45,294 nucleotides of DNA from an uncultured Lysobacteraceae bacterium (lineage in GTDB: Bacteria; Pseudomonadota; Gammaproteobacteria; Xanthomonadales; Xanthomonadaceae). Within the stretch, counting starts at the first letter, position 1. Each line of letters begins with the position of its first letter. Shown one piece after another: positions 1 through 31,866 of the stretch. The stretch covers positions 1 to 45,294 of the forward strand of contig CADECF010000019.1 of NCBI GenBank assembly GCA_902825775.1, in the 5' to 3' direction. The position numbers and the translations under genes are program-made. The notes under the pieces were generated by a model that did no database searches, was not told where the DNA came from, and worked only from the letters and a program-made list of their open reading frames with translations.

Positions 1-373
1 CATGCCGCCCAAGCTGCTCAGCGACGACGGCAAGCATGTGGTGATCCGGCCGCTGGCCTACGCGAGCGAGGCCGATATCGCCGAGTATGCCGACGCGAAG
101 GCGTTCCCGATCATTCCCTGCAACCTGTGCGGCTCGCAGGAGAATCTGCAACGCAAGCAGGTCAAGCGGATGCTGGAAGCTTGGGAGATGGAAACCCCGG
201 GGCGGATCGATCAGATCGCGCGGGCGCTGGGCGACATACGTCCGTCGCAGTTGAGCGATCCGAAGTTGTTCGATTTCCTGGCGCTGGGGCGGGATGGCGT
301 CGCGGCCCTGCCGGATGCGCATGCGTGGCTGGCGGGTGAGCCGCATAGCGGCGCCGATAACGACGAAGCCTGA
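1..373 (+). CDS. ttcA: tRNA 2-thiocytidine(32) synthetase TtcA, C-terminal part
   Basis: TtcA thiolates cytidine 32 of certain tRNAs in the cytosol, using ATP and an iron-sulfur cluster. Only the last ~123 residues are inside the window. The 5' part, with the PP-loop ATP site, lies upstream, and the in-frame ATG at position 2 is an internal Met of the conserved [12 protein letters not shown] stretch rather than the start. The visible part carries the family hallmark [17 protein letters not shown], including a CxxC pair (local residues 40 and 43), followed by the WE...PGRI helix. E. coli TtcA is 311 residues, so about 60% is missing. It stops with TGA at 371-373 and is followed by palindromic repeats. 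Identification is secure; only the gene's extent is unknown. Confidence 0.95.
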
Positions 374-388
374 TGATTGCTTTAGTAG

Positions 389-549
389 CCGTCATTCCCG
401 CGAAGGCGGGAACCCAGTGACTTTTACGTTCCACCAGATCGCTTCGAAGCCATCTGTAGTATCGCGCGCCCTCACCCAACCCTCTCCCGCAAGCGGGAGA
501 GGGCTAGAAAGCAACGTCGCTGGATCCCGGCTTTCGCCGGGATGACGGC
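389..549. repeat. Pair of inverted palindromic repeats flanking a CTCTCCC palindrome
   Basis: Two copies of a ~32-base palindromic unit face each other. The first (389-421) contains GTCATTCCCGCGAAGGCGGG and the second (519-549) contains the opposite orientation, ending CGCCGGGATGACGGC. Between them, at 470-506, lies a second palindrome, CTCTCCCGCAAGCGGGAGAG, preceded by CCCTCACCCAAC. The same family recurs at 28470-28503 and 38692-38795. It fills the ttcA-rdgC gap. Such paired units fold into long hairpins in RNA and may end transcription or protect mRNA ends. That role is inferred. Confidence 0.85.
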
Positions 550-578
550 CTACAACATTCACTCATAACGGACCTTCG

Positions 579-1484
579 ATGTTCTTCAGAAACCTGACCC
601 TGTTCCGCTTCCCTACTTCGCTCGACCTTTCCGAACTCGACACGCACCTGGCCGACGTGCAGCTGAAACCGGTCGGCCCCATGGACCTGTCCTCGCGCGG
701 CTTCGTGTCGCCGTTCGGCCGCGACGCGGAGGCGCTGTCGCACCGCATCGACGACGCCATCTGGCTGACCGTGGGCGGCGAGGACAAGCTGCTGCCGGCG
801 GCGGTGGTCAACGATCTGCTCGGCAAGAAGTTGGCCGACATCGAGGAGAAGGAAGGCCGCAAACTCGGCGGGCGCGCGCGCAAGCGGCTGAAGGAAGACC
901 TGGTCGCGGAACTGCTTCCGCGCGCCTTCGTCCGGCCTACGCGCACCGATGCGATGCTGGACCTCGAGCATGGCCTGTGCATCGTCGATACGTCTTCGCG
1001 CAAGAACGCCGAGACGGTGGTGTCGGAGATCCGCCACGCGCTGGGCAGCTTTCCGGCATTGCCGCTGAACGCGGAAGTAGCGCCGCGCAGCGTGCTGACC
1101 GGCTGGATCGCCGGCGAAAGGTTGCCGGATGGGCTGTCGCTGGGCGACGAGTGCGAACTGAAAGACGCCGCCGAGCACGGCGCGATCGTCAAATGCCAGC
1201 ATCAGGAACTGCAGGGCGACGAGATCGCCAAGCATCTGGAGGCCGGCAAGCAGGTCACGCGCCTCGCGCTGACGCTGGACGATCATGTGTCGTTCGTGCT
1301 CGGCGAGGATCTGGTGATCCGCAAGCTGAAATTCCTGGACGGCGCGGTCGACCAGCTCGAAAGCACCGAACGCGAGGACATCCGCGCCGAGCTCGATGCG
1401 CGTTTCGCGCTGATGGCAGGCGAACTGAAGCGGCTGTTCGCAGTACTGGAGCCGGCGTTGAAGCTGAGCCGCGCCGAAAACTGA
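579..1484 (+). CDS. rdgC: Recombination-associated protein RdgC
   Basis: RdgC is a nucleoid-associated, ring-forming DNA-binding protein that limits RecA-mediated recombination and is needed when replication restart is impaired. The product is 301 residues, against 303 in E. coli, and shows the typical start MFFRNLTLFRFP, the GFVSPFGRDAEALSHR block and the Lys/Arg/Glu-rich middle around residues 85-115. The ATG at 579 gives the canonical N-terminus. The gene stands alone between two repeat-filled gaps, so it is probably transcribed by itself. I see nothing unusual in the sequence. Confidence 0.95.
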   Translation: MFFRNLTLFRFPTSLDLSELDTHLADVQLKPVGPMDLSSRGFVSPFGRDAEALSHRIDDAIWLTVGGEDKLLPAAVVNDLLGKKLADIEEKEGRKLGGRARKRLKEDLVAELLPRAFVRPTRTDAMLDLEHGLCIVDTSSRKNAETVVSEIRHALGSFPALPLNAEVAPRSVLTGWIAGERLPDGLSLGDECELKDAAEHGAIVKCQHQELQGDEIAKHLEAGKQVTRLALTLDDHVSFVLGEDLVIRKLKFLDGAVDQLESTEREDIRAELDARFALMAGELKRLFAVLEPALKLSRAEN

Positions 1485-28777: not shown

Positions 28778-30667
28778 TCATGCAACCCGCGCGCGGCGCT
28801 GGCGGGTCAGATGCACCAGCAGCAGCGAAATCGCTGCAGGCGTCATGCCGGGTATGCGTTGGGCCTGGCCGATGCTCTGCGGGCGGACGCGTTCGAGCTT
28901 CTGCTGCACTTCGGCGGACAGGCCGCGCACGGCGGCGTAGTCGAAGCCGTCGGGAATCGCGGTGTCTTCGTTGCGGCGCTGGCGTTCGATTTCGTCGCGC
29001 TGGCGATCCAGATAACCGGCGTACTTCACGCCGATCTCGACCTGTTCGGCGACCTTGGCGTCGGCGACCGCCGGACCGAGCGACGGCACCGACAGCAGCT
29101 TGGCGTAATCCATTTCCGGACGCTTGAGCAGATCCAATGCATTGGTTTCGCGGCTCACGCCGATGCCGGTGGCCTGCTCGAGCTCGCGGCCGAGCGCGTT
29201 GCCGGGCGTCGCCCACAGCGCGCGCAGGCGCTCGGTCTCGCGCGCGATCGCATCGCGTTTGGTGGTGAAGGCGTCCCAGCGCGCATCGTCGACGATGCCC
29301 AACCCGCGGCCGGTTTCGGTCAGGCGCAAATCGGCATTGTCTTCGCGCAGCTGCAGGCGGTATTCGGCGCGCGAGGTGAACATGCGATACGGCTCGAGCG
29401 TGCCGTGCGTGATCAGATCGTCGATCAGCACGCCGATGTAGGCCTGATCGCGGCGCGGCGACCAGGCTTCCAGCTGCCGCACCGAACGCGCGGCGTTCAG
29501 GCCCGCGATCAGGCCTTGCGCCGCGGCTTCTTCGTAACCGGTGGTGCCGTTGATCTGGCCGGCGAAGAACAGGCCGCTCACCGCCTTGGTTTCCAGCGAG
29601 GTCTTCAGGCCGCGCGGATCGAAGAAGTCGTATTCGATCGCATACCCCGGCCGGGTGATGTGCGCGTTCTCGAAGCCGCGGATGCTGCGCACCAGCGCCA
29701 GCTGCACATCGAAAGGCAGCGAGGTGGAGATGCCGTTCGGATAGATTTCGGCGACATCGAGGCCTTCGGGCTCGACGAAGATCTGGTGGCTCGCCTTTTC
29801 CGCGAAGCGCACCACCTTGTCTTCGATCGACGGGCAGTAGCGCGGGCCGATGCCTTCGATGGCGCCGGTGAACAACGGCGAACGGTCCAGCGCGCCGCGG
29901 ATGATCTCGTGGGTGCGCTCGGACGTGTGCGTGATCCAGCACGAGACCTGGCGCGGATGCTCGGCCGCGCCGCCGATGTAGGAGAACACCGGCAGCGGCG
30001 TATCGCCCGGTTGTTCTTCCATGACCGAATAGTCGAGCGTGCGGCCGTCGATGCGCGGCGGCGTGCCGGTCTTGAGGCGGTCGACCGCGAACGGGCCTTC
30101 GCGCAGCCGATGCGCCAACGCCGTCGCCGGCGGATCGCCGGCGCGGCCGGCCGCGTACTGGGTCTGGCCGACGTGGATTTTGCCGGCGAGGAAGGTGCCG
30201 GCGGTCAGCACCACCGCGGCCGCGTCGAAACGCAAACCGGTCTGGGTGACGGCGCCGCGCACCGTTTCGTTTTCGATGACGAGATCGTCGACCGCAGCCT
30301 GGAACACCGTCAGGTTCGGCTGCGACTCGACGATGCGCCGGATCGCGCTGCGATACAGCGAGCGATCGGCCTGGCAACGCGTCGCGCGCACCGCAGGGCC
30401 TTTCGACGCGTTGAGCGTGCGCCATTGGATGCCGGCCAGATCCGCGGCATGCGCCATCGCGCCGCCGAGCGCATCGATCTCTTTGACCAGATGGCCTTTG
30501 CCGATGCCGCCGATCGCCGGATTGCAGCTCATCGCGCCGACCGTTTCGATGTTGTGGGTCAACAGCAAGGTGCGCGCGCCGGCGCGCGCCGACGCGAGCG
30601 CTGCCTCGGTGCCGGCGTGGCCGCCGCCGATCACGATGACGTCGTAGCGATGGAAGGAAGCGGTCAT
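28778..30667 (-). CDS. mnmG: tRNA uridine-5-carboxymethylaminomethyl modification enzyme MnmG
   Basis: MnmG (GidA), with the GTPase MnmE, uses FAD and methylene-tetrahydrofolate to install cmnm5 at wobble uridine 34 of several tRNAs. The 629-residue product has the same length as E. coli MnmG. It shows the FAD loop [10 protein letters not shown] (from residue 14), the [23 protein letters not shown] block, the substrate-site [11 protein letters not shown] and the C-terminal MnmE/tRNA-binding helical domain. The start at 30665-30667 gives [19 protein letters not shown], the expected N-terminus. The promoter region carries a dispersed repeat (copy B) ~25 bases upstream of the start. Confidence 0.97.
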
Positions 30668-30691: not shown

Positions 30692-30814
30692 TGCCCTCTC
30701 CCGGCGGGAGAAGGTGGCCCGAAGGGGCGAATGAGGATTCGTAGTACCACGTCAGCGGAACGGCTTAGCTTCGCCGAACCCTCACCCCAACCCCTCTCCC
30801 GAGGGGAGAGGGGC
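30692..30814. repeat. ~121-base dispersed repeat element, copy B (upstream of mnmG)
   Basis: Read on the minus strand, this is the same element as at 11254-11374: the outer arm GCCCCTCTCCC...GGGAGAGGGG with TTGGGGTGAGGGTTCGGCGA is identical over ~46 bases (30769-30814), and the inner end shares CTCATTCGCCCCTTCGGG and the CTCTCCCGxxGGGAGA palindrome. The middle ~40 bases are diverged. It occupies most of the leader between the mnmG start and the predicted RNA gene and may carry mnmG promoter or leader sequence. Confidence 0.8.
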
Positions 30815-30854
30815 TAACGGGCCGGCATTATCGCCGACCCCGTGCCGGGCAGGT

Positions 30855-30870
30855 TGGCACGCTTCCTGCT
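30855..30870 (+). promoter_or_regulatory. Sigma-54-type promoter (-24/-12)
   Basis: TGGCACGCTTCCTGCT matches the sigma-54 consensus TGGCACG-N4-TTGCW at all positions except one (C for the first T). The invariant GG (30856-30857) and GC (30868-30869) are ten bases apart, as required. The start of transcription would be near 30881. No protein gene lies downstream on this strand within 1.1 kb; a strong terminator ends at 30995. A sigma-54 activator binding site cannot be named from the upstream sequence, which is the repeat copy B. Confidence 0.6.
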
Positions 30871-30880
30871 TTATCCCTAC

Positions 30881-30995
30881 TTGCACCCAGCGTGGCAAGA
30901 CGCGGGGGCGTTGGCCGGGCAGGAACAGGGACGGCCATGCGCACACTGGGGTAGCGAGGGGCCGGATGTCGGGGGACGTCCGGCCCCGTTTTTTT
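30881..30995 (+). ncRNA. Predicted sigma-54-dependent small RNA (~115 nt)
   Basis: Between the sigma-54-type promoter and a strong intrinsic terminator lies a ~115-base stretch without a credible reading frame. It can fold a hairpin TGGCCG...CGGCCA (30912-30937) whose 14-base loop contains AGGAACAGGGA, then the terminator hairpin. Four GGA triplets are present, two of them in that loop, as in RNAs that bind CsrA/RsmA, but this link is only suggestive. I do not recognise a known RNA family. It is inter-genic between mnmG (minus) and the Gly/Tyr lipoprotein (minus), and reads away from mnmG. A weak ATG frame at 30842-31039 overlaps it but is probably chance. Confidence 0.5.
30958..30995 (+). 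terminator. Strong intrinsic terminator of the predicted sRNA
   Basis: GGGGCCGGATGTC (30958-30970) pairs with GACGTCCGGCCCC (30975-30987) around a G4 loop, 13 base pairs with a single G-U wobble, followed by G and seven T residues (30989-30995). This is a textbook rho-independent terminator on the plus strand with no plus-strand protein gene just upstream. Confidence 0.85.
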
Positions 30996-31002
30996 ATGGC
31001 GC

Positions 31003-31056
31003 CGACGCCCGGCGGAGGCGGAACAGGGGGGATCCGTGATTCCCCACCGGGCGTCG
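31003..31056 (+). other. Long hairpin just after the sRNA terminator
   Basis: CGACGCCCGG (31003-31012) pairs perfectly with CCGGGCGTCG (31047-31056). The 34-base interior holds two GCGGA motifs and a GGGGATC/GATTCCCC inner stem. There is no T-run after it, so it is not an obvious terminator; it may belong to a second transcript or to read-through from the first. Confidence 0.5.
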
Positions 31057-31080
31057 ACAGAGGTGGACCACTACACACAA

Positions 31081-31184
31081 CGTCGTAAAACGACGCGTTC
31101 GGTCATTAGTGGCTAGAGTGCGACCGCTGCGCGGTCAGTGCAAGCGATTTGCTTGCATCAGTTCGGGACAGCGGTCCCGTTTTT
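31081..31184 (+). ncRNA. Second predicted structured RNA with tandem hairpins
   Basis: Four perfect hairpins follow each other: CGTCGT-AAA-ACGACG (31081-31095), GACCGC-TGC-GCGGTC (31122-31136), TGCAAGC-N5-GCTTGCA (31139-31157) and CGGGAC-AGCG-GTCCCG (31164-31179), the last followed by five T residues (31180-31184). Close packing of stems and a terminal T-run are typical of a small RNA. No clear -35 box is visible; TAGAGT at 31114-31119 is a possible -10. It could also be the 3' part of a longer transcript. I know no matching family. Confidence 0.4.
31164..31184 (+). terminator. Intrinsic terminator of the second predicted RNA
   Basis: Six-base perfect stem CGGGAC/GTCCCG with an AGCG loop, followed by TTTTT. 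It reads on the plus strand; on the minus strand the run of A residues would precede the stem, so it is not the terminator of the downstream minus-strand lipoprotein gene. Confidence 0.7.
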
Positions 31185-31224: not shown

Positions 31225-31866
31225 TCAGCGCGTGCCCGACTTCATTTCCGCACGCGCGCGGCGGGCCTCTTCACGCCGTCCGTTGCCGCCGACCGGGACC
31301 GACGTCCTGGGCGCCGCCGGCGCGCGCGGCGCCACGATAGGGGCGGGGCGGGAAGCCGGCGCGCGCGGCGTCACCGAAGGCGCGGGACGATAGCTCGGTA
31401 CGCGCGGGTTCGCCGATGGCGCCGGACGGTAGGCCGGCGTACGCGGCGCATTGCCTGAAACGGGATTCCGGCTGCGGGACGGGGGCAGCATCGGTTGCGC
31501 GCCCTCGGCCTGGCGCACCCGGTCCAGATCCCGCCACGGCGGCTTGCCGCTGTTGGGCGGGCGATGGTGTCCGCTGCCGCCGTGGCCGCGGTACGGCGGC
31601 CGGTAATAGTGATGGCGCGGATAGCTGTAATACGGATAGCCGTAGCGGTAACCGTAGGGATAGCCGTAGTCGTAATAGCTGCCGCCGTAATAGCCGCTGC
31701 CGTAATAACCGTCGTAGTAGCCATAGGGATAGCCGCCGTAACGGCGGTACACCACCTGCGGCTGGGTGCGGTAATAGCCGGCGCCATAACCGTAGTCGTC
31801 ATAGGTGACGCAGCCCGCCAGCGCGAACGCGGCGGCCAGGATCGGAATCAGCAGACGGATTTTCAT
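31225..31866 (-). CDS. Gly/Tyr-rich lipoprotein of unknown function
   Basis: This 213-residue protein has a lipoprotein signal (MKIRLLIPILAAAFALAGC, Cys19). A Tyr/Gly-rich low-complexity region follows (residues ~22-100, many GYY, YGY and GYPY repeats), then a His/Arg-rich patch and a Pro/Ala/Arg-rich tail with repeated PAPS-like units (APSANPRVPSYR, RPAPSVTPRAPASR). The ATG at 31864-31866 is preceded by a GGGGG box. It probably sits in the envelope facing the periplasm or the outside. The composition, not domains, defines it. I do not recognise a characterised family. Confidence 0.75.
   Translation of the reverse strand: MKIRLLIPILAAAFALAGCVTYDDYGYGAGYYRTQPQVVYRRYGGYPYGYYDGYYGSGYYGGSYYDYGYPYGYRYGYPYYSYPRHHYYRPPYRGHGGSGHHRPPNSGKPPWRDLDRVRQAEGAQPMLPPSRSRNPVSGNAPRTPAYRPAPSANPRVPSYRPAPSVTPRAPASRPAPIVAPRAPAAPRTSVPVGGNGRREEARRARAEMKSGTR

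Follow-up and report, generated by a model that had tools for sequence, protein, structure and literature searches.

Organization of the asX1 locus

The stretch of DNA analyzed here (45,294 nucleotides, hereafter the window) carries a small RNA gene between mnmG (gidA), which is transcribed divergently, and a convergent gene for a small Tyr/Gly-rich lipoprotein-like protein. The features of this region are collected in Table 1. An earlier note, made from the sequence, had read here a sigma-54-type promoter, about 115 bases without a protein gene and a terminator, and had known of no described RNA at this place next to mnmG. The last point did not hold. A covariance model search matched positions 30884-30993 (plus strand) to the Rfam family asX1 (RF02235) over the full length of the model (1-115) with 73.4 bits, above the gathering threshold of 70 and with the consensus structure of the family. 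No second match was found in the window's own genome. By this match the small RNA beside mnmG is a copy of asX1, already catalogued in Rfam, and would be transcribed in the window species. The remaining parts of that description agree with our analysis. The only open reading frames over asX1, of 65 and 98 amino acids, were judged spurious, and the GC-rich 13-bp terminator stem followed by a run of seven T is present. The RNA from 30881 to 30995 has a predicted folding energy of -65.4 kcal/mol, a stability that none of 200 shuffled sequences equalled. A hairpin loop presenting AGGAACAGGGA had also been described; GGA does lie in the apical loop, but the apical loop of the minimum free energy structure is AGGAACAG, so that AGGAACAGGGA is partly stem.

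Table 1. Position of the features of the asX1 region in the window
Feature	Position	Strand	Basis
mnmG (gidA), divergent neighbour	28778..30667	-	PF01134, 3.6e-169
Sigma-54-type -24/-12 promoter TTGGCACGCTTCCTGC of asX1	30854..30869	+	Motif and conservation across loci; GG 30856-57, GC 30868-69, exactly 10 nt between
asX1 small RNA (RF02235)	30884..30993	+	Start predicted at about 30881; 73.4 bits; fold z -4.98
Conserved apical loop core GGAACAGGG of asX1	30922..30930	+	ACAGGG in 70/73 and GGA[AG]C in 66/73 loci
Intrinsic terminator of asX1	30958..30995	+	13-bp stem (30958-30987), GGGG loop, then G and seven T
Element 2, "C-loop hairpin"	30995..31060	- (probably), convergent to asX1	Match to model R1, 5.7e-14
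Loop region GGAUCCCCCCUGUUCC of element 2 (plus strand GGAACAGGGGGGATCC)	31020..31035	-	Complementary to asX1 loop
Dyad CGACGCGTTCGGTCA ([CT]GAC-N7-GTCA), candidate PilR enhancer	31091..31105	.	67/72 element-2 loci
Candidate sigma-70-type promoter of element 2	31115..31143	-	TTGCAC 31143-31138, 17 nt, CACTCT 31120-31115
Small Tyr/Gly-rich lipoprotein-like gene, convergent	31225..31866	-	No Pfam match

Matches to asX1 were found in 172 of 198 genomes of the family, 144 of them above the cut-off, and in 46 of 54 genera; genomes without a match are not proof of absence, because the search filters lose weak matches. An order-level search of 200 genomes returned asX1 in 35, all within the family of the window. 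Comparisons between loci were made on 73 loci, which comprise one to four per genus drawn from the 172 genomes with a match (not all of these) plus 12 weak-scoring loci; 57 of the 73 make up alignment A1. Divergent mnmG lies upstream of asX1 in 68 of 72 loci, so the synteny proposed as a check in the earlier note is conserved along with the RNA, and a convergent gene similar to the lipoprotein-like one was present in 9 of the 12 loci examined. CAGGGG is carried by asX1 in 59 of the 73 loci.

Named records with both promoter and asX1, among the 80 of 119 stretches listed, belong mostly to Xanthomonas, Stenotrophomonas, Luteimonas and Pseudoxanthomonas. A contig labelled Bacillus subtilis SK7B5 (L141) carries the pair as well, possibly by contamination with a Xanthomonadaceae strain, and a short contig of genome G077 (C97) has asX1 matches at both 503-619 (minus strand) and 1-96 (plus strand), possibly an assembly duplicate. 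In the window itself, two inverted repeats of the CCTCTCCCG..GGGAGA type (30694-30811, plus strand) that look like REP-type repeats lie between mnmG and the asX1 promoter, and a second terminator-like hairpin with five T (31164-31179, plus strand) lies between the promoter region of element 2 and the lipoprotein-like gene.

A literature search whose reach excluded Schmidtke 2012, reportedly the discovery study of asX1, found no function or promoter for this RNA. RNA-seq reads have been described for asX1 homologues of Xylella and X. campestris (PMC12189769; PMC4652430), and the parts of these two papers that deal with asX1 mention neither a sigma-54 promoter nor PilR control nor a neighbouring hairpin. 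These three features are what the present analysis adds to the known asX1.

A near-invariant sigma-54 promoter

Exact TTGGCAYR-N5-TGC sites number seven in the genome of the window versus four in the reversed control, and a sigma-54 motif alone is weak evidence; it is conservation that makes the predicted promoter convincing. TGGCA-N7-TGC occurs at the identical place before asX1 in all 61 loci chosen first (the window plus one to four per genus), where the TGGCA and TGC columns reach 2.0 bits, as against 0.01-0.33 bits for the columns 10-40 nt upstream. When the 12 weak-scoring loci are added, the motif is found in 72 of 73, the lone exception (L273) having TGGAA, and the GG-N10-GC spacing noted earlier is borne out in 73 of 73. 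The promoter is retained in three loci without an mnmG match in the stretch examined (L041, L053 and L089) and in locus L036, where asX1 is flipped. The predicted RNA start at 30881 lies 12 nt past the C of the -12 element and three bases ahead of the start of the Rfam match.

RNA polymerase containing RpoN (sigma-54) would transcribe asX1 from this site. RpoN (PF04552) was detected in 195 of the 198 family genomes. The asX1-positive genome without a match is G080, with a completeness of 86%; rpoN is present in its congener G050. The sole near-complete genome without an RpoN match, G034 (99% complete), is also one in which neither asX1 nor element 2 was found, a single case. Its only strong PF00158 match, an NtrC-like protein encoded at L322:10038-11372 (minus strand) and adjoining ABC-transporter-like genes, has neither a Walker-A nor a GAFTGA motif and shares 34-38% identity with the PilR candidates described below.

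A search for an upstream activating site by footprints in three groups turned up no more than a Clp/CRP-like palindrome, which is present in some rows. This palindrome, TGTGA-N6-TCACA, lies about 20 nt upstream of the -24 element in seven of eight rows of one genus group (L002-L007, L009 and L049; L006 has a TGTGG half) and also at L017/L040 in a second group. Where it is present, the sigma-54 promoter may be modulated by a CRP-type protein.

PilR as the candidate activator

A control by nitrogen or by an activator had been suggested for this RNA. The notion of an activator stands, with the sequence pointing to PilR, and control by nitrogen has become less likely. A scan of 15 genomes for sigma-54 activators (PF00158) found several in most of them, which leaves room for NtrC or another enhancer-binding protein and for a nitrogen- or carbon-responsive RNA of the NrsZ or CrcZ kind. 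Xylella, which has asX1 (PMC12189769), possesses only NtrC and PilR as sigma-54 activators according to the account in PMC3224663. As described in that paper, sigma-54 sites were sought before annotated genes and on the coding strand, and for this reason it is not expected to report asX1.

Two genomes, G050 (99% complete, a draft of 90 contigs) and G080 (86% complete), the only two of their genus in the set, have one full-length sigma-54 activator each. G050 combines an asX1 match of 61.2 bits (below gathering) and rpoN with a PilR-like protein as the only full-length activator found, which speaks against NtrC. Each of seven other genomes compared, G080 included, has one activator that shares 65-75% identity with this protein; identity is 71% to the PilR candidate of the window genome, versus 36-41% for the other activators compared. 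Five activators failing the Walker-A pattern are excluded from the comparison. The candidate of the window genome adjoins a gene for a kinase with a PilS transmembrane domain (PF25323, 34.0 bits versus a threshold of 27). Two pilins (PF00114), pilB (TIGR02538, over cut-off) and pilC- and pilD-like genes (PF00482 and PF01478) lie about 5 kb away. Two PilR candidates had 62 and 59 NCBIfam matches; the 25 listed for each were all below the cut-off and included no PilR model. The activator is named PilR because of its gene neighbours, the GSFTGA motif and mutual identity. Exact TTGGCAYR-N5-TGC sites in G050 number eight versus three in the reversed control. Six of the eight lie inside open reading frames called by a simple caller, and the remaining two precede a pilin gene (PF00114) and asX1.

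A second line of evidence comes from a dyad at pilin promoters that has a relaxed counterpart near asX1. Twenty pilin-like starts were found: 12 first pilins with a sigma-54 site, four more with a site and four without; G107 yielded none. In each of the 12 genomes with a first pilin of this type a dyad lies 88-134 nt further upstream, reading TGAC-N7-GTCA in 11 of 12 and having an N8 spacer in G050, against a background of 0.016 strict dyads per 260 nt. The four further pilin starts with sigma-54-like sites showed no dyad. One second pilin (PF00114), located after pilA in the window genome (contig C4, L306:3907-4419), has its own CTGGCATGGAGGTTGC site without a dyad.

At asX1 the corresponding sequence lies downstream of the gene. 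In the window it is found about 210 bp past the asX1 start, and across loci its centre lies 193-687 nt (median 299) after the RNA start. The form [CT]GAC-N7-GTCA occurs to the right of element 2 in most loci (Table 1), and the relaxed dyad with spacer 7 was found within 600 nt downstream of asX1 in 68 of 73, the match of L036 lying inside mnmG. Spacers of 2-6 and 8-14 gave 0-10 loci downstream, and the relaxed dyad occurs upstream of asX1 in 13. The strict form is present downstream of asX1 in only 11 of 73 loci, so the likeness to pilA is one between a relaxed motif at asX1 (67/72) and a strict one before pilA (11/12). A search for 8-mers common to the asX1 upstream region and pilA was uninformative. 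Locus L036 constitutes a natural test of enhancer orientation: asX1 and its promoter are inverted in place, element 2 and the dyad stay put, and a TGAC-N7-GTCG dyad lies 207 nt before the asX1 promoter, as expected of an enhancer acting from either side. Alternatively, the half-sites could belong to the RNA of element 2, as features of its 5' part.

Combined, gene content and motifs make PilR the most likely activator of asX1, which would then be made together with a pilin gene. PilR, the partner of PilS and activator of pilA, would switch on asX1 along with pilA by binding to the downstream [CT]GAC-N7-GTCA dyad and contacting the asX1 promoter through DNA looping. The resemblance of this dyad to that of pilA in half-sites and spacer weighs, like the gene content of G050, against NtrC or another enhancer-binding protein as the activator, a reading that we regard as unlikely.

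A second conserved hairpin, probably convergent to asX1

Past the asX1 terminator, within 900 nt, GAACAGGGGG was found in 72 of 73 loci, 25-467 nt (median 106) after asX1; in L036 it lies on the other side of asX1. This sequence marks a hairpin, element 2, in which GGAACAGGGGG is present in 71 of the 72 loci and the 16-mer GGAACAGGGGGGATCC in 60. Alignment A2 was built from 49 of the 69 distinct element-2 sequences, the 20 left out being mostly divergent. Scored on a structure derived from the minus-strand fold, A2 has 95.4% standard pair cells and double changes at 14 of 22 pairs, and none of 500 shuffles reached either value. A covariance model made from the A2 rows found element 2 in 174 of the 198 genomes, with one match each. 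Relative orientation was counted in 145 of the 150 genomes for which a place of element 2 was reported: in 143 the match is convergent to asX1 within 1.2 kb, whereas G002 (the genome of L036) and G131 have both next to each other on the same strand. No Rfam match was obtained for element 2 at E values up to 1. We propose it as a candidate new RNA family, uncatalogued in Rfam.

Variant cores, in which GGAACAGGGGG is followed by A or T, were seen in divergent genera (L050, L065, L088, L266-L269 and L271-L274); in contrast to most of the family, several of these loci give the better fold on the plus strand. On the minus strand, element 2 is followed by a simple U-tailed hairpin in 25 of 72 loci.

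The strand of element 2 determines how its loop relates to that of asX1. Read from the plus strand, it copies the asX1 loop and no pairing follows; one protein, or a third RNA, might then recognize both hairpins through the common GGAACAGGGG. The core is indeed near-identical in both hairpins, without compensatory change, and the plus strand folds better in 15 of 72 loci, 11 of these 15 being among the rows outside A2. The minus strand folds better in the other 57, by a median of 5.9 kcal/mol over the loci; as a control, fold energy picks the known strand of asX1 in 71 of 73 loci. G-U cells in the 49 A2 rows number 158 on the minus versus 16 on the plus strand, with a structure that was itself taken from the minus fold. 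A strand-neutral count over all 69 distinct sequences is nearly even, at 94 minus versus 70 plus (29 rows favour minus, 23 plus and 17 are equal), and an earlier count on the union of pairs gave 166 versus 121 for 72 loci. To the right of element 2, TTGNNN-N16..18-CANNCT, a pattern chosen after the sequences were seen, was found in 53 of 72 loci when the minus strand was read and in no locus on the plus strand. Its spacer is 17 in 41 loci and 18 in 11, other lengths from 8 to 26 giving 0-10 loci, and 9 of the 15 plus-favoured loci are among those with the minus-strand pattern. Strand folding, the G-U cells of A2 and the promoter-like pattern point to element 2 as a probable minus-strand RNA, opposite to asX1, and recognition of a shared motif by a common partner is accordingly given a low probability.

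Proposed loop pairing between asX1 and element 2

Read from the minus strand, the loop of element 2 is complementary to the asX1 loop over at least nine bases in 69 of 72 loci, versus 9% of shuffles. Accessible-duplex energies, computed for 24 of the 72 loci, averaged -9.6 kcal/mol versus -7.3 for shuffled asX1, and 46 of 192 shuffled asX1 sequences paired equally well with element 2 in the energy model. In g42, g50 and g51 the asX1 loop changes, losing GG, and element 2 keeps its full core, so that compensatory change gives the pairing no support. Loop pairing between asX1 and element 2 is the leading idea, an unproven one. Element 2 would be a second small RNA, transcribed convergently from just beyond the asX1 terminator behind its own promoter-like sequence, and the conserved apical loop GGAACAGGGG of asX1 would make loop-loop contact with the C-rich loop UCCCCCCUGU of this RNA, asX1 thereby acting as a pilus-linked antagonist, or target, of a C-loop RNA.

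Another C-loop RNA, sX13, offers a different partner. Its loops carry CCCC/CCCCC, 14 genes that are up in an sX13 deletion strain are type IV pilus genes, and sX13-repressed targets in Xanthomonas are enriched in G-rich motifs, as described in PMC3771888. A link among asX1, C-loop RNAs and pili is plausible on this basis, and asX1 could be a sponge of sX13 through which PilR relieves the repression of pilus genes. The CAGGGG of most asX1 loci and the GGGG loop of the terminator would suit such a role, as would the finding that 58 of 60 genomes have an sX13 match, which exceeds the cut-off in 43. The loops look complementary; however, the accessible-duplex energies in 26 genomes averaged -6.3 kcal/mol versus -7.5 for shuffled asX1, and 206 of 312 shuffles were as good. 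Direct titration of sX13 is unsupported by these values and appears improbable.

The earlier note had also raised the possibility of a CsrA sponge. Window asX1 contains GGA in its apical loop and ACAGGGA, which is close to the CsrA consensus, and its genome has two CsrA matches. Seven of 73 loci, however, lack the apical GGA; they come from four genera, in each of which CsrA was detected (G080, 86% complete, gave no match). Titration of RsmA/CsrA is therefore not supported as a conserved function and is very improbable as the role of asX1. The RsmA-binding RNA reported for Xanthomonas in PMC7694677, RsmU, is distinct from asX1. Contact with CsrA is possible in single genera, including the window's own with its ACAGGGA.

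We somewhat favour the reading in which asX1 is driven by sigma-54 and PilR and acts by loop contact with the convergent C-loop RNA as its antagonist or target. A further extension, a type IV pilus RNA switch common to the family, is put forward tentatively and with considerable doubt: PilS-PilR and sigma-54 would turn on asX1 through the enhancer past the gene, the same dyad would also lie at the start of the C-loop RNA, and loop pairing over 9-10 bases would neutralize the C-loop RNA and so free G-rich pilus messages from its repression. If true, one activator would read the locus as an on/off module made of two RNAs. A search for targets in six genomes, with CCCTGTTCC as the seed, returned 47-114 sites in each, a number too large for interpretation. 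These proposals would turn asX1 from an "unknown sRNA" into a pilus-control circuit that is directly testable, in the family to which Xanthomonas, Stenotrophomonas, Xylella and Lysobacter belong.

Comparison with known systems

Small RNAs dependent on sigma-54 include CrcZ/CrcY, NrsZ, Qrr and GlmY, with CbrB, NtrC, LuxO and GlrR as activators. They share with asX1 a -24/-12 promoter that drives a short terminated RNA. By contrast, the candidate activator of asX1 is PilR rather than CbrB, NtrC, LuxO or GlrR, and its candidate enhancer lies downstream of the gene. RNAs of the CrcZ type carry repeated CA-rich Crc/Hfq motifs, and direct reading of 30881-30995 found no AANAANAA-like stretch.

Among C-loop RNAs, sX13 (RF02232) has a UCCCCCUG loop that resembles the minus-strand UCCCCCCUG loop of element 2. 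The two differ in architecture: sX13 has three C-loops, whereas element 2 is one large hairpin with a single one and adjoins asX1. The pair CJnc190/CJnc180 of Campylobacter, as described in PMC8687705, likewise combines a trans-acting small RNA with an antagonist RNA at the same locus; there the antagonist is cis-encoded, whereas asX1 and element 2 would be convergent neighbours whose complementarity is only of the size of a loop.
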